Part shown: positions 2,600 to 36,852 of the stretch, piece after piece
Layout: the number at the start of each line of letters is the position of its first letter
Numbering within the stretch: the stretch's first letter is position 1
Origin: a virus
IMG/VR virus record: IMGVR_UViG_3300020172_003342
Coordinates: 1 to 36,852 of that record
Reading direction: 5' to 3' (one strand)
DNA length: 36,852 bases
The notes under the pieces: generated by a model
What the model was told of the DNA's origin: nothing
What the model saw: only the letters and a program-made list of their open reading frames with translations
Database searches by the model: none
Position numbers and translations under genes: made by a program

Positions 2600-4135
2600 T
2601 TATAAAATCACTGCTTCAACAATTTTTACATCTGGGTTAGTATTATCTTCTAACGCAATAGCAAAAACAAGATCTGGCATCTCAAGTGGTGTTAAAGCCT
2701 TTGCTACACCGTTTGTATATGCAATTAATCTATCACCTTTTTTAACAGGTCCGTATACTTTAACCGGAACCCGTCCTTTAAGTGCAATATATGTTCCATC
2801 TACTAAATGACTATTCATCATATATGCTGGATTTTCTGATATTGTTCCCAATGCTCTATATCCTGATTGACATGCGGTAACTTCTTTTTCACCACCAACC
2901 ATAACAACTGTACCAACTTCATAATTTTTATCAGCTAAGTATTTCTCAGCCAAGTCAGCATAATATGCCGATGTTGCAGTACCAACAAAATATGTTGCTT
3001 TAATTGAACCAGCAGTTGTTGCAACACCATTAATCATTTCATTGGCATTTGTTCTAGCAACAACTGTTCCAGATGAAGCATCAATACTGGCAGATCTATA
3101 AGTACCACCAACTGATAAATTATCAGCATTATCGGCTGTACCTTTAAATAATGTTGCATATACTTTATTAAATCTACTAGTAGAAGAACCGATAATAGAT
3201 ATATTGTCTTCACCAGGTACCAAATCAATACCAACTATTTTTAATGGTGTTTTTGTAGAATTATTAACAGTTGTTTTGAAAATTATTTGATCACTTACCT
3301 TATTATGAATAATTGGTATTAATGGTCCACCACTAGTTTGTGCTTCATTATAGATCCATAATCGATAATTAGGTGCATCACCACCAACAGTTAATCCAAC
3401 TTCAGGAAAATGCACCTGTGTAGTAAACGATGCATTGCTTGCATATGCAAATTCTGATGGTAGATGGCCACCTAATCGGTCAGCATTTGTAGCAGTTCCC
3501 CAAAATCTATGATCTGTGATTGTTTGACCTGGTTGTAAATCATCATTTGTATTTCTTAATGTAATACCTTTTTGGATTTTTGTAAATCCAGCAATAGGAT
3601 TAATAGTATCATCTAATGTAAATACTGAATCACGACTAATAGTAAATATTGTTTCACCGTTTACAATGCCTTGAATAATAGCATGACTTATATGGTCCGA
3701 TGAGGCATCTATAACATTTTTAGAAAGCATTTCAGTAGTTTGTGTACCAGCAGCTTGTGGGCCAATAAGTACATATTGGGTTCCATCCCATGTATTAAGT
3801 TGATTATGCAATGTATCAAACCACATATCACCAACCGTAAGCCCTGCTGGAGCACTATCTCCGATTTCAGCACCACCGGTTGTACGCCATTTAACACTAT
3901 CAAAAAACTTTAATTTACTAGTGCCGCTATCAAACCAAATTTGACCCTTAACAGCTTTTGATGGTGGATATGGGCGTGAAAAATTTTCTAATAAAAATAC
4001 AAAATTTTCATTTTGTGATTCACCATAACCGGCATAATTTTTACCAATTAGTTTAATATCAAGGGTAGTATCAATTGTTCCATCTGCTACTACTGCTATT
4101 TGATCCCCATTTGTATTATTGATGATATATGACAT
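2600..4135 (-). CDS. Tail fibre protein, paralog 3, with chaperone-like C-terminal domain
   Basis: A 511-aa protein whose first ~250 residues match those of the two genes upstream: MSYIIN start, TDxxLIGKNYAGYGE, NENFVFLLENF, a GQIWFD motif, GDMWFDT, LIGP and RFWGTA. The middle is beta-rich and variable. The last ~125 residues contain YADLAEKYLADKNYEVGTVV followed by motifs such as NPAYMMN and VPVKVYGPVKKGD, a C-terminal type common in phage fibres and resembling self-cleaving intramolecular chaperone (peptidase G2-like) domains. That resemblance is recalled, not tested. AAGGA lies ten bases before the ATG and an AATAAATA late-promoter candidate sits in the gap upstream. Inferred role: trimeric fibre or fibre tip at the baseplate edge. 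Confidence 0.8.
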   Translation of the reverse strand: MSYIINNTNGDQIAVVADGTIDTTLDIKLIGKNYAGYGESQNENFVFLLENFSRPYPPSKAVKGQIWFDSGTSKLKFFDSVKWRTTGGAEIGDSAPAGLTVGDMWFDTLHNQLNTWDGTQYVLIGPQAAGTQTTEMLSKNVIDASSDHISHAIIQGIVNGETIFTISRDSVFTLDDTINPIAGFTKIQKGITLRNTNDDLQPGQTITDHRFWGTATNADRLGGHLPSEFAYASNASFTTQVHFPEVGLTVGGDAPNYRLWIYNEAQTSGGPLIPIIHNKVSDQIIFKTTVNNSTKTPLKIVGIDLVPGEDNISIIGSSTSRFNKVYATLFKGTADNADNLSVGGTYRSASIDASSGTVVARTNANEMINGVATTAGSIKATYFVGTATSAYYADLAEKYLADKNYEVGTVVMVGGEKEVTACQSGYRALGTISENPAYMMNSHLVDGTYIALKGRVPVKVYGPVKKGDRLIAYTNGVAKALTPLEMPDLVFAIALEDNTNPDVKIVEAVIL

Positions 4136-8517: not shown

Positions 8518-11500
8518 TTACTTCAACACTGTATACCATATACCAGGCTCTGCTTTCAAAAATGTTGATACAACATCTGAACTGCCATACACACTACTAT
8601 CATAATTTCCAATTCTAGTCCCTTGATTCAATAAATTTATATTATATCCGTCCCAATTTATTCCAGTACGTTTAACAATTGTAATTCTAGTACCAGGTGT
8701 TAAATTGTTAGTCAATCGCATAGTTGATGATATCCCGTCCACTGAAAAATCAGCATCAAATTGTATATCACCAGCTGGACTATCTTGATTAATGTCAACA
8801 TTATGCACTTTATATGGTTTTTTCTTTAATCGTATATTACCAATGAAAAAATCCCATTTTAATATATCATCATGAAATTTTAATCCACTAATATGTGCTT
8901 CTTTACATCTATAGGTATAACTACCAACAATTACTATTTGATCAATTGCATAAGTTACATTAGATGCCCATACTGTACTATCATTGTATCCACCTACAAA
9001 TACTTCAATATCATCAGCTTGTCCATAATTAGATGGAATAGATGATGTAAAGCCAGTATCATAGTTCCATGGAGTTGATGATTTAGTTGGTATCATATCA
9101 TCTAATTGGATTATATTAGAACCAGTTGATACTATTTGTTTTGTAATATTAGTCTCGATATATGGAATGGTTTCACTCGCACCAATATCTTGTACATATG
9201 ATCCAGCGGTATGAACTACCGGTGTTCCTGTGCCAAGAGTTCCTCTACGCAATTTACTTAATACATTCCCGTTTATTTCAAAGTATTCAATACGTTCACC
9301 TCGTATTTCAACAACACCAGGTTTATTATTAAGTGGATTTGGATTATCGAAATTACTACCATCAGCCACAGTAATTATAATGTCATTCCATTTTAAATCA
9401 TTGACTAATATTGTTTGTTTTTTCAAACTCAATCGTTTATAATGAGTTCTATTCAACATATCTTTGAATTGCATATAAGATATAGAAGGCAATAAAATAT
9501 TACTTCCAAATGTAATTATTGAAAAGTCATCAGTTGATAATGAACCATCTTCAAGTTCAATAGATGATTTATTTTCATTCAATCTGTAATCTACACTCGG
9601 TACTAGTAATATTCCATTTTTAACAACCCATACATAATTATCATTGATAACTGGTCTATCTAACGTGATAATTCCACCTAAAATATTATTATATGTATAA
9701 TATTCTGGCTCTTCTGGTGTTAAAATGATATCTAAATTCAAGTCCGAACGTTGAATATCTAAACTAGAATGTTCATATGAATTAATAATCTCAACCGAGT
9801 GTGAACTATCATAACTTTGATTGAAATATATTTTTGATGGCTCATTTGTAGTCGCAGGAATAATAGAATATCCCTGTTCACTTATTAAACTAATAATTAA
9901 TTGTTTTCCATTATATTGATTGTAAATATTTTTTGTTATTTTTACAGTTATACCACTTAAATCAACTGAATAATCTTCTCCAATTATTAATAAATTACCA
10001 TCAGCGTACACTTTTATTGTATATACATCATCTTTATACGGTTGTTTTTTAAGTTTATCAACGGTATAATTCAATTTATTACTTTTTAAAGTATAATAAC
10101 TATTATTCGGTGATTTTAATATGGTTTGATCTACTCTTACAATTACTTTTGATTCAATTTGGAATGAATCACCATATGACGACATTAACATATATGGACT
10201 GTCAGCTGATCTACCATCTACTGGAATTTTTTCAATTTTGGAAAACGAAAATGATCTACTTGCACCATTATTAATTATATAATCTATATTTGAATAACTG
10301 ACAGGTGCTTCATCAAATTTAATTGCTATAAACCCATCAAGATTTATCAAATTGTATGAACCTGGTGTACCATTTACATTAACTAAAGATGAAACTGGAG
10401 TAATCCATGGTGCTTTTGTTAAAAATTCCTTAGTATTACCATCTCCTACAATGTGTCCAACATCCAATAAATTATTACCACTGTATCCAATCTCATATAT
10501 GGATATCAATGAATCAGCAGCAGGCACTTGATTAAAAACTACAGCGTTATTAATACCATCTATTATATAATCATCACTAATATTTTTTATTACAGATTGA
10601 TTAGCATTCGTTAACTTTACAATTATAGATTTATTGTTAACATTTTTATATGTTATTGGGAATGATTTTATAACACCATCTGCATAATAATTATCAATGT
10701 TTACATTAGCCGAACCATTCGATTGCATATCAAACACTTTAATTGCTACTGAATCCACGATTTGTCCTGGTACTACCTCTTCTGGTGCCGGACTTGATGT
10801 TGGTGTAACAAATCCATCACCATCAATGATAATATCATCAGCGGCCAATCCCTTTGCTGTTGAATATGCCAAATCTCCACCACTTAATGCAGTATCATAA
10901 TCAGCTTCTAATGGTTTTATTGACCCATCGCTTGTTATTTTTCTGAAAATAAACTCATCATTAGTTCCAACCGCGACAGTATTTGGTATGGTTATAGTTC
11001 TATGAATTCCATCACCAATAAAAGATGACATTACTGCATTTTCATTAGATTGTCCATCAGTATTATAATATTGATCATCTATTCTAACAGGATTGTCAGT
11101 TGAACCATCTGGTTTATGATATATATTTATTACATCCCCATTATCTGGAATATATGGGAGGTTAAATTCTCGTGTATCAGCAGCAACATAAACAATATAA
11201 TCATCAAATGTTGAATCCATTGTATCCCATTTATCTGAATAATACGGTGAGCTATCCCATCCTCTGCTTACTTCAAACCCAAGACCACTAACAATAACTC
11301 CACCATAATCCATCCCAGTCATTAATTGCGATAAATCTTTTCCTAAATCACCATCACCAGGATTGTAATAATATTGAATTCTATCAGCAGCATTTAATAA
11401 AGACCAGTCTTTAATATATGTTATTGAAATAATAGCATTATTTGTTGGTGGAGTTAAAAATGTAATCGATCCTATATAATTTGTATGTCCATTTACAATT

Positions 11501-14500
11501 GTTTTTACAATTTTTAATTTGTAATCATCTCGTAATGCATCGATACCATTAATTGTTACACTTGATGTTCCTATTCTAACATCAGGTGCCCATTTTAATG
11601 GGAATATTAGTCTTGAACCAGATCCAGAAAATGTTTCTGTTTCTTGTAATTTAGTAATATAATATGACTGAGTAATTCTATCAAATTTTATTTTAATTAG
11701 GTTTGAACGAATAACACCATCTCCAATAATAGCAACTGCTGTTGCTTTTTTTCCAGTGATTGATATCCCGCCTTCAAGCTGAATAGTTGGCGCTGATAAA
11801 TATCCAGTACCACTAGTCATTAAAATTATACGAGTTACTTTCCCGTTTGCGATAAAAGCCTTGGCTGTCGCAGTCATTTTTGATTTACCAATAATATTTA
11901 CAACCGGTTCACTGATATACCCTTCACCTCCATCAACCACTATGATATTAAGTAGATTGAATCCAACATTATCTACCCAGTGTTTCCATGGGTATGATTG
12001 TATATGTGAATCATCAATGTTAATAATACCGTCTACTACATTGGTGTCAATTATTCCATTATTTCCATTATCATATACAGGTGGTATATCAAAGTCGGTT
12101 ATTGATAATTGATTCAAATCAGTTTTATTATATGCACTAATATATTCACGTACTATAGTTCGATACGGTTTTACTTCGGATACATAGTCTTCAAAATTTG
12201 TTAGATTATCATTTCTATAAGTAACAGATTGATGCAATTCACCTAAATTATGGGTTGCTTTTATAAAACTGGTTTTAAATATCCAATCGACATATGTTTG
12301 TTCACTTAATACATATCTCACACATGTAAAAAATAAATTCAAATATTCAGTTTTTAAATCATCAATGAAAATATCAGTTTTAATGCTATTCAAAATAACT
12401 CTGAGTTCAGTTGATGCACTATTATCAAAAATGCCACCATCATATAACAAATTATCATACCCAACGATTGAATGGGAAAATTCATATAATGATTTACTTA
12501 ATTGAATAGTTCCATTCTGCGATGCTATAATTTGATACGAGCTAGTCCAATCAATAGATTGAGATTCAGCGTACTTTTTCAATACAACCCATGTTCCTAA
12601 ATTTGTGTAACGAACTTTAACCAATTCACCAATATTAACTTCAATTGAATTTAAATCACTATATGTATCAACTGAATATTGGATCGCACTAAATTGATTA
12701 TATCCGTCAGCATACCAATCAATATACCCCCAATACTTTCTAGTATCATATGTTTGTGAACGTATTCTAGACCATAATAAAGTGGTTGGATCATAAGAAT
12801 ATATACTCCATACATCTGATGATTGTGAATCACTATGTACCAACACAGAATAATCCCTAACTATCATAATAGTATTATCATTATATCCATATCCACTATT
12901 CACGATTGTAGCACCAATAATTTGACCATAGTTATTAATATTAGCTTTTATTACTGCATCAACACCAGACCCAACTACTTCTATAAATGGTGCATTGATA
13001 TATCCTCTACCCGAACTTATTATATTAATACCAATAATTCTACCATCTGTTATCTGAGGCTCGATAACAGGTCTAGAATAAGAATTAATATTTGCAAATC
13101 TTAATTCTGCATCAGTATCAACCATCTCATCATATAATCCTCTAATAACATGTGGCTCTGCTTCATAACTTTCTAAATTACTAATGTCACGGGTCTCGGT
13201 TATTAATACAGACTTTAATATTAAATTGGCTTGTTCAACATATTGTTTTAATGCCTCATATCTATTAATAAACATGCTTTGATTTGGTCGGAATTCAACA
13301 CCATATCGTAATTTTAATGGTAATGATGTATCAGGAAGTACTCTATCTTGTGCATCCTTTCCGCATAAACTATCAATCCATTTTTTTTCTATTAAAGATG
13401 GTATGTTACTATTAATATCCGTACCCACCATTTTCCATTGTGAATGAATATTATTCTCGCTATTATCAACCAACCAATATTCAACCGATAATACAACATT
13501 TTTATCATTTAGTAACGATTTTATATTGACTAAACTAAATGAATTTGAGCCAGTCAATGCAAGGTATTGATATCCTTCTCCACGTGGATTAGATATTAAA
13601 CTAGATATATTCTGTGCAGAAATATGTCTACCAGATGTATTTGGTGTGGTTTTTTTATTCTTAACCCAATAATAATACGTATTCTTAAATGTTTTACTAA
13701 CATTATCATATTTTCTTTTTATACTATATGCTAAATCTCCATATAATGATTGGCCACTCATTCCGATAGTCAATCCAACTTCGGTGTCAGCCTGCAAGTC
13801 CCATTCTGATGGTAGGTATTTTGATTCAACCCATTCATAAATATCAACCGATGCGCCCGTAGCTAGTGTACTCCATGTACTATTTCTATAAACAATATCA
13901 TTATCATTGCTGTCAACAAATTTTGAAGTTCTTAAATCCCACCATAATGTTCCGACATTTTTAGTAGTCCATGCCATCCCATCATCAACATTAACAGCTG
14001 GTGTACCAACTGAATATATAGCTGGATCATAAAAAACCTTATATTTTATTTCAGAGTCAGCAATACCTGCTATTTTACCATTCAATGGATCAATAATATC
14101 CAAATATTTTATTAATTCATTAGTTGATTTATTATATAAAAATGCCTGTTTGATTTTTTTAACATCCGGAATCAATATTTCATTATGCTTAATGGTCCAG
14201 CTGTAAGTATTTGGCTGTTTTCTATATTCATATATTACACCAGATTTTATAGTATTATAAGTAGCATATGGGGAGCTAACAATTACACAGTCTGAGGCCG
14301 CTATCAGAACCGTTCCATACCCATCTTCTTCAGAATCAGTCATTTCCAAGCTTTCACTAAAAACCCATTTAGATCCATATTGGTTATAGACATCAATTCT
14401 TCCACTGTCTAAATTGTTTTCATCAATAAACTGGGTAGTACTATCATCAAATATAGTGTTATCTGTAAAATTCAATTTTACAACTGTATCTGCATTTTTA

Positions 14501-17500
14501 CTATAAACCAATAAAGTTTTATAATCATTTGCAAATAATATTTTTGTACCAAAGTACCCAGATACCTCCGGACTATTGTTTATCAATTCTTGATATTGGA
14601 TATACGTGCCAGTATCTTTATAAACAATCACTTTGCCTTCATTATTTTTTTCACCATCAAATAATATATCTGAAATTGAAATATATTCACCAGTAGGTGA
14701 TATTGTTATATCTTTTCCAAAATATGAATTGGTACCTGTAATAGTTTGGGTCAATATATCATTTTTATATACAAAAACTTTTCCGTCCAAATCAACATTT
14801 CCAGGTGCTGAAATTAAAATAGTATTTCCATCATTAGTACCAATTATTTTATTTCCATATCCGCTATTGGTATTAGTACCATGTTTTGTTTTTGCAGTAT
14901 TATATTTCCATTCTGTTGTAGTAAATGTTACCATACCGGACGGAGTTGAATCTGGTTCCGCATTTAATAGTACTGTTTTATTAACAGAATTTACACTAAC
15001 TACTTTTTGAGATTTTGTAAATCCTGTACCATGCGCGGTCATCCCAGCTTGTATGCCTGATACATTAGATAATTTTATTGTTGTACTAATGCTTCCAATT
15101 TCATCATAATATGCAGTTGCCCAGACAGTATCATTGTATTCCAGTTTATACACCGTGCCGTTTCCATAATCAGCACCTACATATAAACAATTACTTCCGA
15201 AGAATAAACTTGAACCAAATTTTTCATTTTGTGTAGGATTTGGACTTAATACAGTATCAACTAATGTATAGATATTATTAATATCCTTTTCATATAATGA
15301 TATTACACCATGGTTAGTAATACTAGATTCATTCGACTGTTCATTAATAACATTCATAAACCCGTTTAATTGATACGAACCATAACTAACTGTTGATGAA
15401 CCAGTTGCCATCCATCTTCCATCACTAGACATTGCAATTGTTGTTGCAATACTGGTTGGGTTTACATTCACAATAGTTGGTGTTATGAATGGGATCTCGA
15501 TAATTTGACGTTGAACCCATGGACTAGTTGTACTTCCTCTATCATAGGTGATGACTTCACCAGTATCTAACGTGGTTGCTATTAATCTAGCATCTGAACT
15601 TATTTCAATCACCTTTCCATATTTTAAGTTATTAATTGGATTTCTATATAAATGTGAATAGCGTGTATATACCGGTGAATATTCCCATGTTGACCATAAC
15701 CCAGAACCATTATCATCTGTCCACAATAACTCTTTTTCTTTTAATATTTTTGGCAATTTTAGATCAATATTATCAATTGAATCAACTCGTTGACTATCAA
15801 ATGAATAAATTATTGTATTTTCATTATTATCATATGGAGCTGTAAACTGTAATCCTTTAATGTCAATAGTTAATACATTAAGTTCAACACCTGATATCTT
15901 ATAAAATCCACTGATTCCTGTTGTTGTAAATGAATTATCAACTTTTATGTTTTCTCTAATTCCAATATAAGATCCAACTGCCAATGATATCAACCTGTCA
16001 GTTGTAATTGTTAATACATTATTATCATATGTAATATTATTAATTACAAGATTAGTATCAGTGTATCTGTAAACGTTCCATCCATTTATGTCAAATGAAC
16101 ACCATACATAATCACCATTAACAAATTTGGTGATATCCTGTTTTAAAATTTCATCAATTGATTTTAGACTAATTAATACCTCATTTTCTCTAACATAACC
16201 AGCTGTTCTTAAAAATGGTTTTTTATCTGTCAACATTGGCCATGGATTTGAGTTATATCCAATTGGTTTTAAATATACATCGTTTTGTGATTGTCTTATG
16301 ATAAAATCAACAGAAGATGAGTTAACTTTATCTATTAATTCTACACCCTGTGGATTGTTCTTGAACAATGATTCATCCAATATAAACTCAATATTTTCAT
16401 ATGAACTACTTGCACCATATTGACCGACCCTAACTGCCCATTCTTCATTGAATTTTAAACTTTCTTGGTTATCAGCACTTAATACATCAAATAATTTATT
16501 AAATACATTTTGTGTACCTTTTTCAATGATCATGCCTTGGTAAAATTTGAACTCACTAACATCATCTTGAATTATATTTTCTAAATATTGTCGTTTTTGA
16601 TATCCAATTAAATGCTGTGCCATTTTTTGTTGTGTTATATCAAAATTATCACTATCCAAACTATAAAAATCTTCAAACTGACTGGCTTTATAATTCCAAT
16701 TTGGTAATAATGCTGGTACTGGTTTTTTATCTAATTTAATCCATAACGTATGATTGAATTCAGCAGTACCATTTATAAATTTACTAGCACTATAATAAAA
16801 TTCTTTATATTTTACTATATCGCCTAATGCATAATCTTTCCATGCTTCCCAATCTTGGATTTTAGCTTGATCAAAAATAAACCCAGGTACATCAAAAGCA
16901 CCGTACCAACCAATACTAAGATACCCAGCTACTTTTATTCTATCTTGTTTATACCCACTTTCTGGATTGTAAATCGTGTCATTGAACATGGTAGAGTTAT
17001 CAATAATGACGACTTGTTCTTTCTGCACTAAGAAAAATGTTGCACCATAAATGCCATCATCACCAATCGGTGTGTAAGTAACGGCATTATCTTCTCTATA
17101 AGAATTTAAAAAATTATATGGTATTGTTTGTCCATCAACACGATAGATTTCATAACCATTAAATGAATTAGTAATATCATCAACAACTGACATTGGCGAA
17201 CTGAATGTCAATTTTTCAGCCGATGGGCTTAATGAAATTACAGAACTACCAATTGTACTCAATCCATCCAATTTTACAAAATCATTAGTATTAAATATAG
17301 ATGATTGCGAATTTCGTATTGCACGATAATAATCACCATTATACATAACAATCGACCCATATGATACTAATGCATCAGCATCCCAATCATCCCATTTATC
17401 CTGTCCAGTTGACCAATTTTGAGTAGTCCAGAATAAAAATTCTTTCGCACTTGTTTCCCAATTGGTCACACTAGATAAATTAGTATTAAAATCATCAAAA

Positions 17501-20500
17501 ATAAAACCTTGATCTTTTAAGTATTCACCATATCCTTGAAGAAAATCTACAACTTCCTGTGTTGTTCTAAATTTAGTATTATAAGGAATTGTTAATGCTG
17601 TTTCTCTATCCCATCTTTTTCTAAGTATCGCATCTTTTCCACCTATAATAGGTAAATCAGGTAAAATTTGATAATATGATTGATCAAATGATGCGCTAGT
17701 TGTATGTAACGATTTTACTCTATAATATTTCCCATTATAATTTACAATTTTACCAGCAGAATATTGTTGATTTGATGTCCATAAAAGATAACTTTCTGAT
17801 ATCCCACCGACATTTATTGTAATACCAGATTGTTGCCATGCATAATATTTAAAATATGGTGTTGTTTTACTGTATCCCTTTACTTCAAAACCATCAGGCA
17901 GTTTTGTAACAATTACCCCACTGTAAGTAATCTTTTTAATAGGGTTAGAACTATTCAAAATTATATCATAATTTTCGTGTGGTACAAAAACATTACCAGT
18001 TGATAATGGTGTTTTTGAATCCAGCAATAAATTGAATTTTTCTTTACTAGTAAAAGATCCAAGTCTATGAGAGATTCTAGGTGTGATATTAGTCAAATCA
18101 TATTGATATTGTGTATATGATTTTAAATTATCACTCAATATATAATTTACTAGATAATTGATTATACCAGATGTTTGTGAACGATTTATACTCGATTGGA
18201 TGCTTGGCAATACAATATCACTTGGTTTTATGCGTAAGCCAGTATCTTTATACACTAATTGGTCGGTTTTATTTCTAATAATTCTTGATCTATCTAATAA
18301 AACACCGATAGTTTGATTTGGTTTTAATAACATTATAGTAATTATTATCGCAAATGGATAATACGAACTACGTCTCCATGCTGATTCAATTGGACTCATA
18401 TCTCCAAAAACAAAATCACCACTAACTGATTCAGTAATAATACCATTCGCTAAATCAGACATGAGAGGACTTATTAATTCTCCATATTCATCAACTGGAA
18501 TATGTGATGTAATGAATGGTTTAGCATATCTTTCTAATTTAATAGTTGGTTTTCCTGGTTCTTTTACAAATCCATTACTTATATCATCCCATAATACAAA
18601 GTTATTACTGGTATATGGAGCTGGCCCATATACATCAGTCCACCAGTATGGTTCTTCTGTAAATCCCAACATTTCCCATGGACATAAATGTGGTCTATCA
18701 GTATCTAAAATCCATTTATATACACCTCTCCAATATCCTGGTACTGTACTCCCATCTGGTGCTGAATGACCTGAATAATTGTAAGTAAATGAATTACTTC
18801 TATCAAAACTTAATGGTTTTGAAAAATCACGGTCGATCAACGATGTCCATTTATAAAAATTAGGTGCTAATACATTATTAAATTCTGACAAACTATATTC
18901 AGTTTTTCTATTGTATCCTGGAATAATGTCATTTATATCAAATATAGTTGTATCATATGTTACTTTAATATTATTATATATTCTCTTTTCTAATTCAAGT
19001 AACAATGCATCACGGTAATCTGGTGTACCATTAACATCATATGTACCATATGCTAATACTTGACTACCATCATGTCCTTGTATCATCCAACGTGGAGTTA
19101 CAAAACTAGTGTCTAGATATATCATTGGTTGATATTTTGGAAATATTCCCAATTTTGTTGGTGTTTCTGGTATGAAACACCCATCGGTATTTTCATATTC
19201 ATAAATGGTTATTACATCATCATTAACCAGTTTAGATGTTATTACAACAAAACCTTGTGTATCAAAATAATAATCACGACTATATAATAATTGTTCGTCA
19301 TTGACATATACAATCACAGATTTATTAGAAAGTAATTCCATGGAGAATACAGTAGTCAGTGGATAAAGTTTTATTCTATAATCTACTACTTGTATAATAG
19401 TTTTTATACTTGCACCACATGGGGCCATATCACTAAAATAATAAGGAAAAGTATTTGGTTTATCTTTATTAATTTTATCTAATACCAAGTTCACATGTGA
19501 TATTATATCGGTATCTACACCAGTCTGTTCAGCTACTTTAATAAAATTTCTTTTGAATTTACCGTAATCATCTCTACTCTTTTCAATTGATCTAATAATA
19601 TTATTAGTTTCAGTTGTAATATGATATAATGATAAACTAGCTGGACCACTATGTTGTATGAATCGAGTACCGTACTGTGATGTATTACCTAAATCTCTTA
19701 AATTACTAATACCAGGAAAAAAACCAACAAATGTTGATAAATTGTCAACAATAGAATTAACATGATCAATGATTTCCCCTAAAGTAAAATCGGTCATTTC
19801 ATCATTCATTGGATTATTCTGTAGATTTAATGGAATTTCATAGTAACCAGTTTCATTAATTAGTTGTGATGAAAATGCTCTAATTGTTAATACATCAGTG
19901 GTCATTAAATCGACAGCTAACTGTATAACCTTGTATACAGGACCATCAGTAATGTTCCAGTTAGATTTGTCTAATCTAACACCATTAACGTACAATTTGA
20001 CTGTCAAATCACTTAACTCATTAATATTATCAAAAATATCAATTTCAAAATTGTTTACTTGGTTGGATGATTTGTAAATTCTAATTGCCGCTTGTGTATT
20101 ATCTAGTGTATTTTTTTGCCAACCGTTTACATATATGATATTACCAGAATAATCCATTTTTGACAAATAACCAACATTAATTTTTTTATCAATAACTGAG
20201 GTTAGTTCTTTATATATAAATGAATCTGACACCATATTAAAATTAAAAACAATATCACCTATATTATTAATATTCTTATATGATAAAGGAAATCCTAATA
20301 CAGAATCATTTGATCCAGTACCAATTTTATATGAAAATATCTTAGTTCCGTTAAAGGTAGTTCCAGTGAACACACTTGCATCACTGTAACTCACACCATT
20401 TTCATCAACAACATCAAATAATGGTGGTTGATTTAATGAGGTTTTTTGCTGTGTTTTTACCCAACTTTCACCATTAAACCAATACATATCACCTTGGTTT

Positions 20501-22080
20501 TTAACACCAGAGTGAATTAAAACTACTTGGTCCGTTTCAGGATTACCTACTTCAACTAGGTGAATTATTTTTGATAATGAAACCCCATTCAATGATAAAT
20601 GGTCGTAATCTAAAATTTGTACTTCATATATTTTATTTTTAACCATTGGATCAGTATCAGCTGCTGCTAGAATTCTATGACCAGCTATTAAATCAATACC
20701 ATCAATGTTATATCCATATGAACCTTCAATGGTTGAAAAAATATCAGTTGTGTAAGTATCAATAAGATCAACATCTTTAATAGCAGTTGTACCAAAGTTA
20801 AACAATCTTAAATCGGCTTCGAATTCTATGATTGCACGTTTTGCTCTTGTAGATTGATCTAGTTCTGCTATTTTATTGTTATATCGAGCACTTGATTCGA
20901 TTGTATCTTTATGAAACCATCTATTATATCTAGACCATGGATTGTGATCTCGGCTAGATCTGTTTATAACGATGTAGTCTGGGGTTCCTGCAAACGAAGT
21001 TGCATCACTAAATGGCATTTTGTCAAATGGTGTTGTATCAAACTGAACAGTAACAGAAGATGTATATGAACTTGTCATTTCTAATACAGATTCATCCACT
21101 AATGTTATAGCGTTACCAACACCTTCAACATAATATTTCCCAGTAGAATATTCATTTGGTTCTACATTACCACCGAATGTGACTTTCATACCATTACTCA
21201 ATGGTGTTCCATCTGGTAATGCATATGTTTTTTTGCCTAATAATTCTGTTTCAACATTGATATATGAATTTTCTTCAATGGTTAAAATATGAATTACTCC
21301 ACCCAAATCAGTATCATTCTCACTCTGATAATATAATACAGAAGGAGCATCATATGGTATTGTAAATGTTATAGTACCGGTTTCTATAGTATTATTTTTT
21401 AATCCAATATCAGTATATCTATTACTAGTACCAGAACTTCTATGTGTCTTAAAACTAAATGGGTTTCCTGGACTATTAATCTCAAAATTATATGTCTGCC
21501 CTTTGAATAAGGTTAGAGTTGGGTTTCTATCCAATCCATTAGGTGTAAATATATAAGTGTTATTATCACCTTCAGATTCAATAACAACAGTATAAGTACT
21601 TTCTATCTTATGTCTCTGTCCATATATTCTAATTACATCCGGGCCATAAGGTAACCAATAATAGTTCTGAAAATTTGATACTTTATCCCAGTCAATATGT
21701 GGATCCCAACTATAAAATTCTTCTTTATTAATTCTTGAATGATTTGATACATCACTTCCAAAAACATCTAATTGATTTATATAATCAATATAATCTTTAA
21801 ACAATATAGTATTATTCAATGAATCTTTAATAACTAATCCTGGCTCTAATTGATAATTTTGTCGTACTGCATCGACCGCAGATAAAAATATGTCATCCCC
21901 ATTAGTTGCTTTTGCATTTCTACGACCAATATATCCATTTACTTTTTTAACAGTACCAGGTTTAATCAATTGATCCATTGTAGCTTGTAAAAACTTTTTA
22001 TTAAAATCTGTTGTATAAATTCTAGGTAAAAAGCTTGAAGAAATGTTATTACTGGCGTTTGGTTTTGTGCTATCTGCCAT
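8518..22080 (-). CDS. Giant multidomain baseplate wedge-region protein (4520 aa, gp7/gp8 position)
   Basis: One unbroken 13.6-kb frame. The ATG overlaps the gp6 stop (TAATG) and has GGGAG seven bases upstream. Seen in order: an N-terminal segment with NFQNYYWLPYG near residue 140; a cupredoxin-like beta segment at 186-267 ending LYYQSENDTDLGGVIHIL; an NPWSRYNRWFH motif near 380; a helical segment at about 760-850 (TLGEIIDHVNSIV, YGTRFIQHSGP, FKRNF); modules of the form W-Y-G/D-IV-YNG-YYR near 1430, 1570, 1745 and 4370; a beta-propeller-like repeat region at about 2150-2620; GxGY...AP repeats near 3017-3070 and 3377-3430; and MDYGGVIVSGLGF near 3590. Long proteins of this kind sit after gp6 in T4-like aquatic phages. 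T4 gp7 has about 1030 residues, so this one is over four times longer. Gp7/gp8 equivalence is inferred from position. Confidence 0.85.
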   Translation of the reverse strand: MADSTKPNASNNISSSFLPRIYTTDFNKKFLQATMDQLIKPGTVKKVNGYIGRRNAKATNGDDIFLSAVDAVRQNYQLEPGLVIKDSLNNTILFKDYIDYINQLDVFGSDVSNHSRINKEEFYSWDPHIDWDKVSNFQNYYWLPYGPDVIRIYGQRHKIESTYTVVIESEGDNNTYIFTPNGLDRNPTLTLFKGQTYNFEINSPGNPFSFKTHRSSGTSNRYTDIGLKNNTIETGTITFTIPYDAPSVLYYQSENDTDLGGVIHILTIEENSYINVETELLGKKTYALPDGTPLSNGMKVTFGGNVEPNEYSTGKYYVEGVGNAITLVDESVLEMTSSYTSSVTVQFDTTPFDKMPFSDATSFAGTPDYIVINRSSRDHNPWSRYNRWFHKDTIESSARYNNKIAELDQSTRAKRAIIEFEADLRLFNFGTTAIKDVDLIDTYTTDIFSTIEGSYGYNIDGIDLIAGHRILAAADTDPMVKNKIYEVQILDYDHLSLNGVSLSKIIHLVEVGNPETDQVVLIHSGVKNQGDMYWFNGESWVKTQQKTSLNQPPLFDVVDENGVSYSDASVFTGTTFNGTKIFSYKIGTGSNDSVLGFPLSYKNINNIGDIVFNFNMVSDSFIYKELTSVIDKKINVGYLSKMDYSGNIIYVNGWQKNTLDNTQAAIRIYKSSNQVNNFEIDIFDNINELSDLTVKLYVNGVRLDKSNWNITDGPVYKVIQLAVDLMTTDVLTIRAFSSQLINETGYYEIPLNLQNNPMNDEMTDFTLGEIIDHVNSIVDNLSTFVGFFPGISNLRDLGNTSQYGTRFIQHSGPASLSLYHITTETNNIIRSIEKSRDDYGKFKRNFIKVAEQTGVDTDIISHVNLVLDKINKDKPNTFPYYFSDMAPCGASIKTIIQVVDYRIKLYPLTTVFSMELLSNKSVIVYVNDEQLLYSRDYYFDTQGFVVITSKLVNDDVITIYEYENTDGCFIPETPTKLGIFPKYQPMIYLDTSFVTPRWMIQGHDGSQVLAYGTYDVNGTPDYRDALLLELEKRIYNNIKVTYDTTIFDINDIIPGYNRKTEYSLSEFNNVLAPNFYKWTSLIDRDFSKPLSFDRSNSFTYNYSGHSAPDGSTVPGYWRGVYKWILDTDRPHLCPWEMLGFTEEPYWWTDVYGPAPYTSNNFVLWDDISNGFVKEPGKPTIKLERYAKPFITSHIPVDEYGELISPLMSDLANGIITESVSGDFVFGDMSPIESAWRRSSYYPFAIIITIMLLKPNQTIGVLLDRSRIIRNKTDQLVYKDTGLRIKPSDIVLPSIQSSINRSQTSGIINYLVNYILSDNLKSYTQYQYDLTNITPRISHRLGSFTSKEKFNLLLDSKTPLSTGNVFVPHENYDIILNSSNPIKKITYSGVIVTKLPDGFEVKGYSKTTPYFKYYAWQQSGITINVGGISESYLLWTSNQQYSAGKIVNYNGKYYRVKSLHTTSASFDQSYYQILPDLPIIGGKDAILRKRWDRETALTIPYNTKFRTTQEVVDFLQGYGEYLKDQGFIFDDFNTNLSSVTNWETSAKEFLFWTTQNWSTGQDKWDDWDADALVSYGSIVMYNGDYYRAIRNSQSSIFNTNDFVKLDGLSTIGSSVISLSPSAEKLTFSSPMSVVDDITNSFNGYEIYRVDGQTIPYNFLNSYREDNAVTYTPIGDDGIYGATFFLVQKEQVVIIDNSTMFNDTIYNPESGYKQDRIKVAGYLSIGWYGAFDVPGFIFDQAKIQDWEAWKDYALGDIVKYKEFYYSASKFINGTAEFNHTLWIKLDKKPVPALLPNWNYKASQFEDFYSLDSDNFDITQQKMAQHLIGYQKRQYLENIIQDDVSEFKFYQGMIIEKGTQNVFNKLFDVLSADNQESLKFNEEWAVRVGQYGASSSYENIEFILDESLFKNNPQGVELIDKVNSSSVDFIIRQSQNDVYLKPIGYNSNPWPMLTDKKPFLRTAGYVRENEVLISLKSIDEILKQDITKFVNGDYVWCSFDINGWNVYRYTDTNLVINNITYDNNVLTITTDRLISLAVGSYIGIRENIKVDNSFTTTGISGFYKISGVELNVLTIDIKGLQFTAPYDNNENTIIYSFDSQRVDSIDNIDLKLPKILKEKELLWTDDNGSGLWSTWEYSPVYTRYSHLYRNPINNLKYGKVIEISSDARLIATTLDTGEVITYDRGSTTSPWVQRQIIEIPFITPTIVNVNPTSIATTIAMSSDGRWMATGSSTVSYGSYQLNGFMNVINEQSNESSITNHGVISLYEKDINNIYTLVDTVLSPNPTQNEKFGSSLFFGSNCLYVGADYGNGTVYKLEYNDTVWATAYYDEIGSISTTIKLSNVSGIQAGMTAHGTGFTKSQKVVSVNSVNKTVLLNAEPDSTPSGMVTFTTTEWKYNTAKTKHGTNTNSGYGNKIIGTNDGNTILISAPGNVDLDGKVFVYKNDILTQTITGTNSYFGKDITISPTGEYISISDILFDGEKNNEGKVIVYKDTGTYIQYQELINNSPEVSGYFGTKILFANDYKTLLVYSKNADTVVKLNFTDNTIFDDSTTQFIDENNLDSGRIDVYNQYGSKWVFSESLEMTDSEEDGYGTVLIAASDCVIVSSPYATYNTIKSGVIYEYRKQPNTYSWTIKHNEILIPDVKKIKQAFLYNKSTNELIKYLDIIDPLNGKIAGIADSEIKYKVFYDPAIYSVGTPAVNVDDGMAWTTKNVGTLWWDLRTSKFVDSNDNDIVYRNSTWSTLATGASVDIYEWVESKYLPSEWDLQADTEVGLTIGMSGQSLYGDLAYSIKRKYDNVSKTFKNTYYYWVKNKKTTPNTSGRHISAQNISSLISNPRGEGYQYLALTGSNSFSLVNIKSLLNDKNVVLSVEYWLVDNSENNIHSQWKMVGTDINSNIPSLIEKKWIDSLCGKDAQDRVLPDTSLPLKLRYGVEFRPNQSMFINRYEALKQYVEQANLILKSVLITETRDISNLESYEAEPHVIRGLYDEMVDTDAELRFANINSYSRPVIEPQITDGRIIGINIISSGRGYINAPFIEVVGSGVDAVIKANINNYGQIIGATIVNSGYGYNDNTIMIVRDYSVLVHSDSQSSDVWSIYSYDPTTLLWSRIRSQTYDTRKYWGYIDWYADGYNQFSAIQYSVDTYSDLNSIEVNIGELVKVRYTNLGTWVVLKKYAESQSIDWTSSYQIIASQNGTIQLSKSLYEFSHSIVGYDNLLYDGGIFDNSASTELRVILNSIKTDIFIDDLKTEYLNLFFTCVRYVLSEQTYVDWIFKTSFIKATHNLGELHQSVTYRNDNLTNFEDYVSEVKPYRTIVREYISAYNKTDLNQLSITDFDIPPVYDNGNNGIIDTNVVDGIINIDDSHIQSYPWKHWVDNVGFNLLNIIVVDGGEGYISEPVVNIIGKSKMTATAKAFIANGKVTRIILMTSGTGYLSAPTIQLEGGISITGKKATAVAIIGDGVIRSNLIKIKFDRITQSYYITKLQETETFSGSGSRLIFPLKWAPDVRIGTSSVTINGIDALRDDYKLKIVKTIVNGHTNYIGSITFLTPPTNNAIISITYIKDWSLLNAADRIQYYYNPGDGDLGKDLSQLMTGMDYGGVIVSGLGFEVSRGWDSSPYYSDKWDTMDSTFDDYIVYVAADTREFNLPYIPDNGDVINIYHKPDGSTDNPVRIDDQYYNTDGQSNENAVMSSFIGDGIHRTITIPNTVAVGTNDEFIFRKITSDGSIKPLEADYDTALSGGDLAYSTAKGLAADDIIIDGDGFVTPTSSPAPEEVVPGQIVDSVAIKVFDMQSNGSANVNIDNYYADGVIKSFPITYKNVNNKSIIVKLTNANQSVIKNISDDYIIDGINNAVVFNQVPAADSLISIYEIGYSGNNLLDVGHIVGDGNTKEFLTKAPWITPVSSLVNVNGTPGSYNLINLDGFIAIKFDEAPVSYSNIDYIINNGASRSFSFSKIEKIPVDGRSADSPYMLMSSYGDSFQIESKVIVRVDQTILKSPNNSYYTLKSNKLNYTVDKLKKQPYKDDVYTIKVYADGNLLIIGEDYSVDLSGITVKITKNIYNQYNGKQLIISLISEQGYSIIPATTNEPSKIYFNQSYDSSHSVEIINSYEHSSLDIQRSDLNLDIILTPEEPEYYTYNNILGGIITLDRPVINDNYVWVVKNGILLVPSVDYRLNENKSSIELEDGSLSTDDFSIITFGSNILLPSISYMQFKDMLNRTHYKRLSLKKQTILVNDLKWNDIIITVADGSNFDNPNPLNNKPGVVEIRGERIEYFEINGNVLSKLRRGTLGTGTPVVHTAGSYVQDIGASETIPYIETNITKQIVSTGSNIIQLDDMIPTKSSTPWNYDTGFTSSIPSNYGQADDIEVFVGGYNDSTVWASNVTYAIDQIVIVGSYTYRCKEAHISGLKFHDDILKWDFFIGNIRLKKKPYKVHNVDINQDSPAGDIQFDADFSVDGISSTMRLTNNLTPGTRITIVKRTGINWDGYNINLLNQGTRIGNYDSSVYGSSDVVSTFLKAEPGIWYTVLK

Positions 22081-33023: not shown

Positions 33024-34795
33024 GTATAACCATTAAGGAATTAACCGTCAAGAATTTTATGAGCGTAGGGAATCAAACCCAAGCTGTAAATTTCACTGCA
33101 GAAAATCTAACTCTTGTATTAGGTGAAAACCTAGATCAAGGTGGTGATGATTCTGGGTCAAGAAACGGAACTGGCAAAACAACGATTGTCAATGCATTAA
33201 GTTTTGCATTATATGGTGTTGCACTTACTAATATCAAGAAAGATAATTTAATCAATAAAATCAACAATAAAAATATGTTGGTTACATTAACATTATCCAA
33301 GGATGGTATTGATTATAAAATTGAACGTGGTAGAAAACCAGCTATCTTTAATTTTATTAATGTAAGTGATCCCATAAAGAATCAGGAAAGTGATAGTCAA
33401 GGTGAATCAAAGGATACCCAAGAAGATATTAATGAATTATTAGGAATGAGTCATGATATGTTCAAACATATTTTAGCACTCAATACTTATTCTGAACCAT
33501 TTTTATCAATGAGAGCAGGTGATCAACGCGCTATTATTGAGCAATTATTAGGGATAACCTTGTTAAGTGAGAAAGCAGAGGCTCTTAGTAAAGAAATCAA
33601 AAAAACCAAGGAGTTAATTTTTCAAGAAAAAGCAAATCTCGATGCTACACAAAAAGCAAATGAAAGAATTCAACAAAGCATTGATACATTGGTGATGAGT
33701 CAACGTGCGTGGAATGCTAAACATAATTCAGATTTAGAAAAAATTGCTAAATCAATTGTTGAATTAGAAGGACTTGATATAGAAAATGAAATTCAAGCAC
33801 ATGCTGCTTTAAAAATTCATGATGAAAAATCAACAGAATTGAAAAGCTTTAATAAAGAGTTAGCAACATTAGATACAGCGCTAGGACAAGCAACCAAAAC
33901 TTTAACAAAATATGTAAATGATTCTGAAACATTATCATCAAACAAGTGTCCTACATGTGAACAAGAACTACATGACCATAAACATGCTGAAATGTTAAAA
34001 ACAGCAACCGATAACGTCATAGAAGCACAACGATACCATGATAAAGTATCAGCCGATTGGACTAGAACATATGACGCAATCTGCCATCTAGGTGATATAG
34101 GAGTTAAACCTAGTACATTTTATGATACAGTAGAAGAAGCACTTAGACATCAAAATAACTTGACCACTTTAACCACTCAATTAAATTCAAAAGCAGTTGA
34201 AGTTAATCCATACGATGATCAAATTATTGAATTGAAAAGTGAAGCATTACAAGTTATAAATTGGGATATCATCAATGACTTGAATAAACTTAAAGATCAC
34301 CAAGAATTTTTACAAAAGCTACTGACTAATAAAGATAGTTTTATTCGTAAAAAAATCATTGATCAAAATTTAGCTTATTTGAATAACAGATTAACTTATT
34401 ATCTAGATAAAATGGGATTACCACATACGGTAATATTCCAAAATGATTTATCAGTTGAAATTACTCAACTTGGTCAAGAATTAGACTTCTTTAATCTCAG
34501 TCGTGGGGAAATGACACGGGTGACATTGGGGTTAAGTTTTGCATTCCGCGATGTTTATGAAAGTTTATATTCATCAATTAACCTAATATTCATTGATGAA
34601 TTAGTTGACAATGGATTAGATACAAATGGTGTGGAAAATGCCATTGGAATTATGAAAAAATTTGCAAGAGAAAGAAGTAAAAATGTATTCTTGATCAGTC
34701 ATAAAGATGAGTTAGCAAGTAGAGTTAATAATATATTAAAAGTATCAAAAGAAAATGGATTCACATCTTATCAATATCCAGAATATAAAGAATAA
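33020..34795 (+). CDS. 46: Recombination endonuclease subunit gp46 (Rad50/SbcC-like ATPase)
   Basis: A 591-aa SMC-type ATPase, slightly longer than T4 gp46 (~560). Seen: Walker A SRNGTGKTT (residues 47-55); long coiled coils at ~185-300 and ~320-450; a zinc hook CPTC at 310-313 between them; the ABC signature NLSRGE near 492-497; Walker B LIFIDELVDNGLD (522-534); and the H-loop SHKDE (H561). The zinc hook joins two coiled coils, and the ATPase heads control the gp47 nuclease. It starts within the gp47 stop. Its last 41 bases overlap the homing endonuclease frame, so that insertion lies right against its 3' end. Confidence 0.96.
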   Translation: MSITIKELTVKNFMSVGNQTQAVNFTAENLTLVLGENLDQGGDDSGSRNGTGKTTIVNALSFALYGVALTNIKKDNLINKINNKNMLVTLTLSKDGIDYKIERGRKPAIFNFINVSDPIKNQESDSQGESKDTQEDINELLGMSHDMFKHILALNTYSEPFLSMRAGDQRAIIEQLLGITLLSEKAEALSKEIKKTKELIFQEKANLDATQKANERIQQSIDTLVMSQRAWNAKHNSDLEKIAKSIVELEGLDIENEIQAHAALKIHDEKSTELKSFNKELATLDTALGQATKTLTKYVNDSETLSSNKCPTCEQELHDHKHAEMLKTATDNVIEAQRYHDKVSADWTRTYDAICHLGDIGVKPSTFYDTVEEALRHQNNLTTLTTQLNSKAVEVNPYDDQIIELKSEALQVINWDIINDLNKLKDHQEFLQKLLTNKDSFIRKKIIDQNLAYLNNRLTYYLDKMGLPHTVIFQNDLSVEITQLGQELDFFNLSRGEMTRVTLGLSFAFRDVYESLYSSINLIFIDELVDNGLDTNGVENAIGIMKKFARERSKNVFLISHKDELASRVNNILKVSKENGFTSYQYPEYKE

Positions 34796-35471
34796 TACTA
34801 TTCCATACTTATATAAGTGGACTCAGCTATCCACTGGTATGTGGTATATAGGTTCGAAAACGCAGAAGGGTTGGTCACCAGCCCTTCATGAGAAATATAT
34901 ATGTTCTAGTAAAATTGTTAAACCAATGATTTTAGAAAACAGAGATGATTGGAAATATGAAATATTAGTCATAGGGGAAGCATCTTATATACGAAAACTA
35001 GAAACAAAATATCTAGTAATTCTAGATGCAAAAAATAACAGTAACAGTTATAACCGAAGTAATGCTGCTTTCGATCCAGGAAATAAATTAGGAATGAAAG
35101 AATCACTAATTACGCGAAATAAAAAAAGCATAGCTAGATTAGGTGATAAAAATCCAATGTATGGAAAGACTGGTGAAATTTCACCGCATTACGGTAAGAA
35201 ACATTCAGTTGAAACAAAGGCAAAGCAAAGTATTGGTATTAAAAACTATGCAATCAATAGACCAATAGAACATAATAAAAAAATTGCAGAAGCATTGAAA
35301 GGAAATCCAAAAGTTGGTCTTAAAAAAGAAAAGAATCCGTCTTTTGGAAAACCATGGGTTGCTGAACATCTAAAAGATATACCACCTAAAACGTGTGAAT
35401 ACTGTAATAAAACTGTTTCAATAGGAAATTATTCTAGATGGCATGGTGAACAATGTAAATTAAAAAAATAA
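34755..35471 (+). CDS. GIY-YIG homing endonuclease with NUMOD3 repeats and zinc finger
   Basis: A 238-aa free-standing homing endonuclease. The N-terminal nuclease domain shows YLYKWTQ (18-24) and WYIGSK (30-35) as the GIY and YIG strands, and a conserved acidic site in RKLETKYL (E83). DNA-binding parts follow: NUMOD3-type motifs NPMYGKTG and SPHYGKKHS at 133-151, and NPSFGKPW at 194-201, then a zinc finger with C214, C217, H230 and C234 (RWHGEQC). The residue after YIGS is Lys where many relatives have Arg, so activity is uncertain. The ATG lies inside gp46 (41-base overlap) and has only a weak purine-rich site. There is no sign of an intron. A strong terminator follows. Confidence 0.88.
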   Translation: MDSHLINIQNIKNNTIPYLYKWTQLSTGMWYIGSKTQKGWSPALHEKYICSSKIVKPMILENRDDWKYEILVIGEASYIRKLETKYLVILDAKNNSNSYNRSNAAFDPGNKLGMKESLITRNKKSIARLGDKNPMYGKTGEISPHYGKKHSVETKAKQSIGIKNYAINRPIEHNKKIAEALKGNPKVGLKKEKNPSFGKPWVAEHLKDIPPKTCEYCNKTVSIGNYSRWHGEQCKLKK

Positions 35472-35887: not shown

Positions 35888-36406
35888 ATGAGTAGCAAAT
35901 CTAAAAATAAAGGCAATAGTTGGGAAAGAGATGTAGCAAATCATCTTTCTATCTTATATAAATCAAAATTTATTCGAGTTCCAAACTCGGGTGCATTTAT
36001 CGGAGGTAAGAATAATACCAGGAAAGAATTTCTTCATGAAGGTCAAATCCGAATGATGAAAGGTGATATTATTCCACCAGATAAATGGAAATACTTTAAT
36101 TGTGAATGTAAATCATATGCAGATTTCCCATTTCACCAACTAATGCAAGGTGAATGTAAACAATTAGAAACTTGGCTATCTCAATTACTTGAAGTGGCTG
36201 ATGAAGGCGACATGAATATCTTAATGTTTAAGATAACAAGAAAAGGCAAATTTATAGCAGTACCACAGGCACCACAATGGCACCAATTACCATATAACTC
36301 ATACCATTCTATTAAACATGGTATTTGGCAAATATTTGATTATGATGCATTTTTTGAACATAATCAAAAATTAGTTAAATCACTGTGTATCAAAGGCACA
36401 AAATAA
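35888..36406 (+). CDS. PD-(D/E)XK nuclease (Holliday-junction-resolvase-like)
   Basis: A 172-aa protein. The N-terminal KGNSWERDVANHL (E13), then RVPNSGAFIGG (30-40), KGDII (D60) and NCECKSYAD (E73, K75), follow the order E...GD...ExK of the PD-(D/E)XK fold, as in archaeal Hjc-type resolvases. That would make it an endonuclease acting on branched or damaged DNA, in keeping with the nearby gp46/47 genes. The rest (HQLMQGECKQLETWLSQL, ILMFKITRKGKFIAVP) suits the core sheet and helices. It follows the 117-aa gene after three bases with only a weak ribosome site. Fold assignment is fairly sure; substrate is inferred. Confidence 0.78.
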   Translation: MSSKSKNKGNSWERDVANHLSILYKSKFIRVPNSGAFIGGKNNTRKEFLHEGQIRMMKGDIIPPDKWKYFNCECKSYADFPFHQLMQGECKQLETWLSQLLEVADEGDMNILMFKITRKGKFIAVPQAPQWHQLPYNSYHSIKHGIWQIFDYDAFFEHNQKLVKSLCIKGTK

Positions 36407-36803
36407 GGCATCTCTAGGCTCCACACTTCTGAAATACTCGCACCGGTAGATTGATAGGTGCCGTTGGCAATGGAATGTTCTTCGCATTGAGCGTAACAAC
36501 TGAGCAGAAGCAGTGACTTTTTCGACTACCTACACCTCGTGATGTAGATGATGATTGGATACGCCTTCCGTACAACCAATTTCGAAAATTTGAACAAATG
36601 AAAAAAGGCTAAAAGACTGGGTAATTCCCAGACGTAATAGGAATATGACTAGAGTATTTTCCTATTACCACCGTTGGACATCAGAAACAAAAACGCACTT
36701 CGAGGTAACGGCCAACCGCCTCTGTAATCAGTGTAACTCTAGGTAATGAAGTAACTCAAATGAGATTTTTATTATTTTTTGCTCCCTTCGGGGGGCAAAA
36801 TAT
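36407..36803 (+). ncRNA. Candidate structured non-coding RNA, family unknown
   Basis: No plausible gene is present. By hand count GC is about 42% (36407-36800), against about a third in nearby genes. Hairpins visible: 36459-36469 (TGCC/GGCA), 36474-36488 (AATG/CATT), 36530-36547 (CTACA/TGTAG), 36617-36631 (CTGGG/CCCAG), 36634-36668 (10-base stem GTAATAGGAA/TTCCTATTAC), 36702-36722 (GAGG/CCTC with an inner CGG/CCG) and 36777-36800 (10-base stem with a UUCG loop). Long-range pairs such as 36407-36413 with 36456-36462 and 36491-36495 with 36560-36564 are also possible. It is not a tRNA, tmRNA or RNase P RNA by its conserved parts. Strand is assumed from the genes to the left; ends are uncertain. 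Confidence 0.5.
36777..36800. other. Stable hairpin with a UUCG tetraloop
   Basis: TTTTGCTCCC and GGGGGCAAAA form a 10-base stem (one G-T pair) around TTCG, closed by C-G, the especially stable tetraloop type. No T-run follows it on either strand (the T tract lies before it), so it is not a standard terminator. Similar hairpins occur between genes in T4, where they slow 3' decay or act as boundaries. Here it may form the 3' end of the RNA candidate. Confidence 0.75.
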
Positions 36804-36819
36804 GTAAATCATAATCTAA

Positions 36820-36852
36820 ATGAGTATAGGACAGGTTGCATTACTATTGATA
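36820..36852 (+). CDS. Possible start of a further gene, cut by the right edge
   Basis: An ATG at 36820 opens a frame (MSIGQVALLLI) that runs off the window after 11 codons. It follows the RNA candidate, but there is no clear ribosome site, so it may be chance. Too short to identify. Confidence 0.2.
   Translation, partial: MSIGQVALLLI

Follow-up and report, generated by a model that had tools for sequence, protein, structure and literature searches.

The closest described relative of the element analysed here is Polynucleobacter-1 (Rfam RF01718), which was defined in 2010 from Burkholderiales, fresh water and estuary sequences as probably structured and probably cis-regulatory (PMC2864571). 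Phages also carry larger noncoding RNAs, among them GOLLD and ROOL, which are highly structured, contain multiple pseudoknots and are of unknown function (PMC12286853), and an abundant noncoding RNA is found in the lytic myophage ICP1, with another in its satellite (the ICP1 and PLE RNAs, PMC7567579). In our literature search RF01718 was scarcely named, and DUF6641, whose gene flanks some of the bacterial copies described below, was nowhere named.

The window, i.e., the whole 36,852-nt stretch of viral DNA that was analysed (IMG/VR record IMGVR_UViG_3300020172_003342), ends in a region for which an earlier note, made from the sequence alone, had proposed a folded phage RNA matching no family. 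The folded RNA was borne out by strong covariation across homologues, but a family does match: the plus strand of this region carries a compact, structured RNA, at least ~420 nt long, the 5' third of which is already known as Polynucleobacter-1. What is new are the other two thirds, which lie beyond the Rfam model, the three predicted pseudoknots and the distribution in T4-like phages.

The intergenic gap, its Rfam match and its homologues

The last gene of the window stops at 36406 and no further gene follows up to the window end. The nearly identical contig L002 has its next gene start at 4052, which corresponds to about position 36939 of the window and puts the true gap at ~530 nt and the window end inside it. 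The stretch is geneless, as the earlier note had it, but the end given there (36803) was too early, as conserved sequence runs to 36824. The main features are:

35888..36406, +: flanking gene, PDDEXK/RusA-like resolvase (PF24608, 5.8e-28; phrog_244, 4.2e-18), context outside the RNA
36426..36824, +: conserved RNA inside the window (full-length profile match, boundaries from alignments)
36435..36591, +: Polynucleobacter-1 RNA (RF01718), 5' third of the molecule

The GC content of the gap is 40–43%, compared to 28–35% for nearby genes, and this rise had been noted correctly, as had the positions of CCGTTGG (36461 and 36671), GTAACTC (36733 and 36751) and a UUCG-capped hairpin (36781–36796). The folding energy is unexceptional (z = -1.57, with 8 of 100 shuffles equally good), and several hairpins drawn in the minimum-energy fold differ from the conserved ones. 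Because the folding energy is only slightly better than that of shuffled sequence, hairpins alone prove nothing, and the case for the RNA rests on homology and covariation. No long reading frame is kept across the 102 homologues, whose longest stop-free stretches within the 400-nt core have a median of 64 and a minimum of 36 amino acids.

The RF01718 match was obtained by cmscan at 61.9 bits (cutoff 37, E 5.6e-11), making 36435–36591 a bona fide member by score, and no other Rfam family reached its cutoff on the window RNA. A full-length profile matched 147 loci (102 unique sequences), most of them over nearly the whole length, and homologues from ~100 distinct loci can be aligned across ~420 nt, spanning 36426 to 36824; the close relatives L002–L004 stay conserved far beyond 36591 and have compensated stems. 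Further homologues came from pattern scans of viral contigs and a search of 151 genomes of a Burkholderiales hit's genus. The family falls into groups A (window-like), B, C (bacterial, Polynucleobacter type), D and E, and a diverged group F (L015, L019, L025, L027–L029 and L031) which, like L024 and L214, falls short of the RF01718 cutoff and was recognised by position and motifs. A covariance model built from groups A and D alone was too narrow for the other groups, and a profile search and a grammar test were used instead. Searches by blastn with the window and with group B, C, D, E and F copies found no match in 50,697 phage records, nor did a group B copy match plasmids; RF01718 was absent from seven isolate phages that share a flanking nuclease (including Melnitz-3 and PA5oct).

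Downstream of the RNA, a small hairpin motif with G-A steps, GA[AG]CGN1-3AG[CT]GA, is present in 59 of 92 distinct loci at 380–620 nt past the start of the RNA, compared to seven occurrences at other places in 1.37 Mb of strand sequence; downstream there is a GAGCGNNAGCGA hairpin. In L002 this motif and a terminator-like hairpin stand just past the equivalent of the window end, from which it follows that the transcript probably continues past 36852, to ~500 nt.

Two side observations were made. In RNA-less relatives (L005:3512-3640, L008, L016, L018, L017 and L020) another GC-rich, structured-looking element of ~115 nt lies just after the PDDEXK gene, and it had no Rfam match. In an unrelated contig (L059:8743-9263, minus strand) a copy of the RNA carries an ~80-nt insert before P10 and has a TnpB-like gene upstream.

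Covarying helices and pseudoknots

Comparison of the homologues shows a predicted fold of nine or more covarying helices, along with three pseudoknots, arranged in the window as follows:

36426..36431, +: 5' strand of pseudoknot PK1 (CTTCTG), pairing with 36505–36510
36505..36510, +: 3' strand of PK1 (CAGAAG), in the loop of P4
36440..36461, +: hairpin P2 (36440–36444/36457–36461), covarying, in RF01718
36468..36489, +: hairpin P3 (36468–36472/36485–36489), covarying, in RF01718
36499..36514, +: hairpin P4 (36499–36502/36511–36514), whose loop forms PK1
36519..36588, +: helix P5 (36519–36525/36582–36588), enclosing P5b and P6
36530–36534/36543–36547, +: P5b, inside P5
36554–36558/36576–36580, +: P6, inside P5
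36564..36567, +: 5' strand of PK2, in the P6 loop, pairing with 36605–36608
36605..36608, +: 3' strand of PK2, outside RF01718
36617..36631, +: hairpin P8 (36617–36621/36627–36631), covarying
36634..36668, +: hairpin P9 (36634–36643/36659–36668), covarying
36649..36655, +: 5' strand of PK3 (CTAGAGT), in the P9 loop, pairing with 36736–36742
36736..36742, +: 3' strand of PK3 (ACTCTAG), covarying
36695..36734, +: helix P10 (36695–36699/36730–36734), enclosing P11
36702–36705/36719–36722, +: P11, near-invariant core GAGGTA..GGCCAACCGCCTC
36781..36796, +: hairpin P12 (GCTCCC/GGGGGC), UUCG-capped, with a hairpin at this site in all groups

Among the window-like sequences PK1, P4, P5, P5b, P8, P9 and PK3 each beat all 500 shuffles, which ignore relatedness; recurrence of the helices in separate groups is for this reason the stronger argument, and the same layout was recovered independently by helix scans in four separately aligned groups. 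In this window-like set, six of the seven P5 pairs show double changes (0 of 500 shuffles; P5b likewise), as do two pairs of P8 (0 of 500), and P6, invariant here, covaries in group B. In the combined groups A and D, double changes were found in five of six PK1 pairs and all four PK2 pairs, with none of 500 shuffles reaching either count; PK2 beats all 500 shuffles only with group D included. PK1 takes the form CTACTG/CAGTAG in groups C and E, and PK2 recurs in groups B, C and E.

The part outside RF01718 was followed in a 32-sequence alignment, in which PK3, P10 and P11 together had 100% of cells paired and nine pairs changed on both sides, a count that 0 of 500 shuffles reached, while slid versions of the pairing were 26–55% paired. 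Individually, PK3 (100% paired) shows double changes at five of seven pairs, with 10-bp and 7-bp versions in groups B and E, and P10 (100% paired) at four of five; P11 is invariant in this set and carries no covariation information there. At the P12 site a hairpin with changed stem and loop is present in all groups, where alignment gaps hamper a formal covariation count. P12 was also considered as a terminator and rejected, as no T-run follows it on either strand.

The phage locus and the bacterial copies

The RNA is resident in a T4-like freshwater phage lineage, at the same genome position in nearly all members. In ~80 T4-like phage contigs it occupies one locus, the order being gp47, gp46, a small gene, a SegE-type GIY-YIG nuclease gene, the RNA, a gene for 73 amino acids and an opposite-strand T4 baseplate gene; in the window variant PDDEXK takes the place of the SegE-type nuclease. 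Its retention at one locus by a phage lineage implies a genuine role during infection. Upstream of the RNA no promoter rose above chance, and hence the RNA may be processed from the gp46-nuclease transcript.

Other features of these phages were noted in passing. A NUMOD3 homing endonuclease gene (window 34755-35471, plus strand) overlaps the end of the gp46-like gene, and a single open reading frame of 4520 amino acids spans 8518-22080 (minus strand) in the structural region. Small proteins labelled 'NAD synthetase' in phrog_447 and phage records match Pfam SegE_GIY-YIG (4e-32), and the label looks like a propagated misannotation.

Sporadic copies are found in Burkholderiales and Methylococcales genomes: in 13 of 151 genomes of what is probably the genus Polynucleobacter, some with two copies, and above the RF01718 cutoff in 3 of 399 genomes of the order Burkholderiales and 5 of 301 genomes of the order of a Methylococcales MAG. 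The Burkholderiales copies are flanked by a divergent DUF6641 gene, which in all Polynucleobacter-type copies lies ~150–200 bp upstream. The Methylococcales copies are flanked by a basic protein with a T4-prohead-like N terminus. The window RNA is 83–87% identical to Methylococcales-MAG copies despite unrelated flanks, which suggests transfer of the RNA and a methanotroph host for the phage. At L161, L162, L163, L164 and L093 a divergent gene beside the bacterial copies encodes a basic protein (MRISELLNDD...DIDEG) that starts like a T4 capsid-targeting peptide and has an LxE/IxE-like site, which suggests a satellite of T4-like phages.

The coupled repeat, its possible role and the known systems

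A sequence of 6–11 nt, termed R, occurs twice per RNA, after CTC and after TCT, flanking the last hairpin (P12). In the window the two copies are:

36758..36764, +: R1, first direct-repeat copy, AAATGAG, preceded by ACTC
36818..36824, +: R2, second copy, AAATGAG, preceded by AATCT

Some 20 forms of R exist across the family (AGATGAA, GGATAAT, AGCGAAAG, ACTTAAAGAG, GTGTCAAGT and others, those of group B in TTCG/ATCA contexts), and the two copies within one RNA are almost always identical. When the sites were picked without regard to identity, 48 of 56 RNAs matched at 6 of 6 positions, and the mean match was 5.55 of 6, compared to a permuted mean of 3.45 (maximum 3.93 in 1000); a few RNAs, such as L265, L268 and L260, are exceptions in which R1 and R2 are unequal. 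R2 was also the best partner of R1 positions 1 and 2 by mutual information with the other columns. A grammar consisting of the core and CTC-R...TCT-R gave 90 hits inside known RNAs and none in shuffled sequence, and the core with R1=R2 picked up seven diverged copies missed by both Rfam and the profile. As a pointer to how the RNA works, the R1=R2 rule is sharp and testable.

We tentatively propose that the pseudoknotted body would serve as a scaffold displaying the two identical short sequences around P12, and that a single variable partner would be bound by both, most simply through base pairing, such that drift of the partner would force both copies to change together. The partner is hypothetical, because complements of R were not enriched within the RNA or the flanks of its loci (25 versus 19.6 expected) and no consistent antisense site was found near gene starts in two large phage contigs. 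Taken as a whole, a structured, trans-acting RNA is the explanation that we consider likely, its role as a scaffold much less so.

The same repeats could alternatively mark a DNA-level element, a recombination or replication site folded by chance, in which R1 and R2 would be the sites of a specificity-changing protein. Direct repeats flanking a hairpin fit this reading, as do an integrase near a Methylomonas MAG copy and a catalytic-domain-only tyrosine recombinase downstream of 12 of about 20 Polynucleobacter-type copies (L158, L159, L261–L264 and others). However, kept G-U pairs, swapped loops and covariation of three pseudoknots are RNA traits, the lytic phage copies have no recombinase nearby, and no third R copy in its repeat context was found in 12 loci, leaving the DNA-level reading improbable.

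Whether the RNA instead regulates the next gene in cis, as a leader or riboswitch (the 2010 guess for RF01718, PMC2864571), turns on what lies downstream. The window lineage does have a same-strand downstream gene, with a T4-prohead-like N terminus, but genes between the RNA and the baseplate gene are present in some contigs and missing or inverted in others. Different groups carry unrelated genes after the RNA, and most group B and E phages have their next gene on the strand opposite to the RNA. The bacterial copies are neighboured by different genes again, phages and bacteria share no coding partner downstream, and in L002 a potential terminator hairpin, GGGGAACATGTTCCCC, stands between the RNA and the gene. 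Because the downstream gene changes or points the other way, we infer a separate trans-acting RNA and find a leader of one particular gene quite unlikely.

A hairpin that has an identical repeat at each end, within an RNA, would also suit a DRT2-like reverse transcriptase template, with R1 and R2 as template-jump repeats; the annotated neighbours of phage and bacterial copies, many neighbours being unannotated, include no reverse transcriptase, and we give this reading very little credence.

Membership in a known large phage RNA family (GOLLD or ROOL, which the earlier note had named as the first to exclude), or identity with a tmRNA, an intron or another catalogued RNA, hardly comes into question. 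The style is similar, and on one phage contig a permuted tmRNA (L238:876-1166, RF04321, 95 bits) lies ~200 nt upstream of the RNA, but Rfam models of introns, tRNA, tmRNA, GOLLD and ROOL matched the RNA neither in the window nor in 52 related loci, and by ARAGORN 59 of 60 loci were free of tRNA and tmRNA genes. In the window, ARAGORN and Rfam found no tRNA or tmRNA, the latter of which would carry a tRNA-like domain with a tag frame. A group I or II intron was likewise rejected, as the RNA sits between intact genes. The sole locus of the 60 with a tRNA array (L252:154-9211) has 13 tRNAs, one of them suppressor-like with a CUA anticodon. That the hairpins arose by chance in a decayed gene, which the unexceptional folding energy would allow, is refuted by covariation, conservation across lineages and the lack of a conserved frame.

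Returning to the known systems, the window RNA resembles GOLLD and ROOL in general character and differs from them in size (~420 nt, compared to 659 or >800 nt) and in place, a fixed locus beside gp46 and baseplate genes rather than near tRNA arrays, and it matches neither by sequence or covariance model (PMC12286853). A homo-oligomeric nanocage is a further mark of those two families. The ICP1 RNA, compared by description and with no homology claimed, is ~800 nt and lies near the lysis cluster (PMC7567579). We venture, with considerable doubt, that Polynucleobacter-1 would be only a fragment of a large phage RNA machine of a class not recognised before, which T4-like phages would share with elements integrated in their hosts. 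Such a machine would carry a duplicated and fast-changing recognition sequence (R1=R2) and would thereby work as a retargetable guide or scaffold.

With Polynucleobacter-1 itself the RNA shares P2, P3, P4 and P5, and its membership in RF01718 stands, the Rfam ends being a modelling choice. The model ends at ~141 positions, whereas homology and covarying pairs go on ~230 nt further; it is without PK1, PK2, PK3, P8–P12, R1/R2 and the 3' hairpin, and it misses the copies of group F as well as L024 and L214, so that an extended model would find copies missed by Rfam. Phages are absent from the 2010 table (PMC2864571), and what was then a minor small-RNA motif becomes a large RNA with three predicted pseudoknots, kept at one locus by a freshwater T4-like phage lineage.
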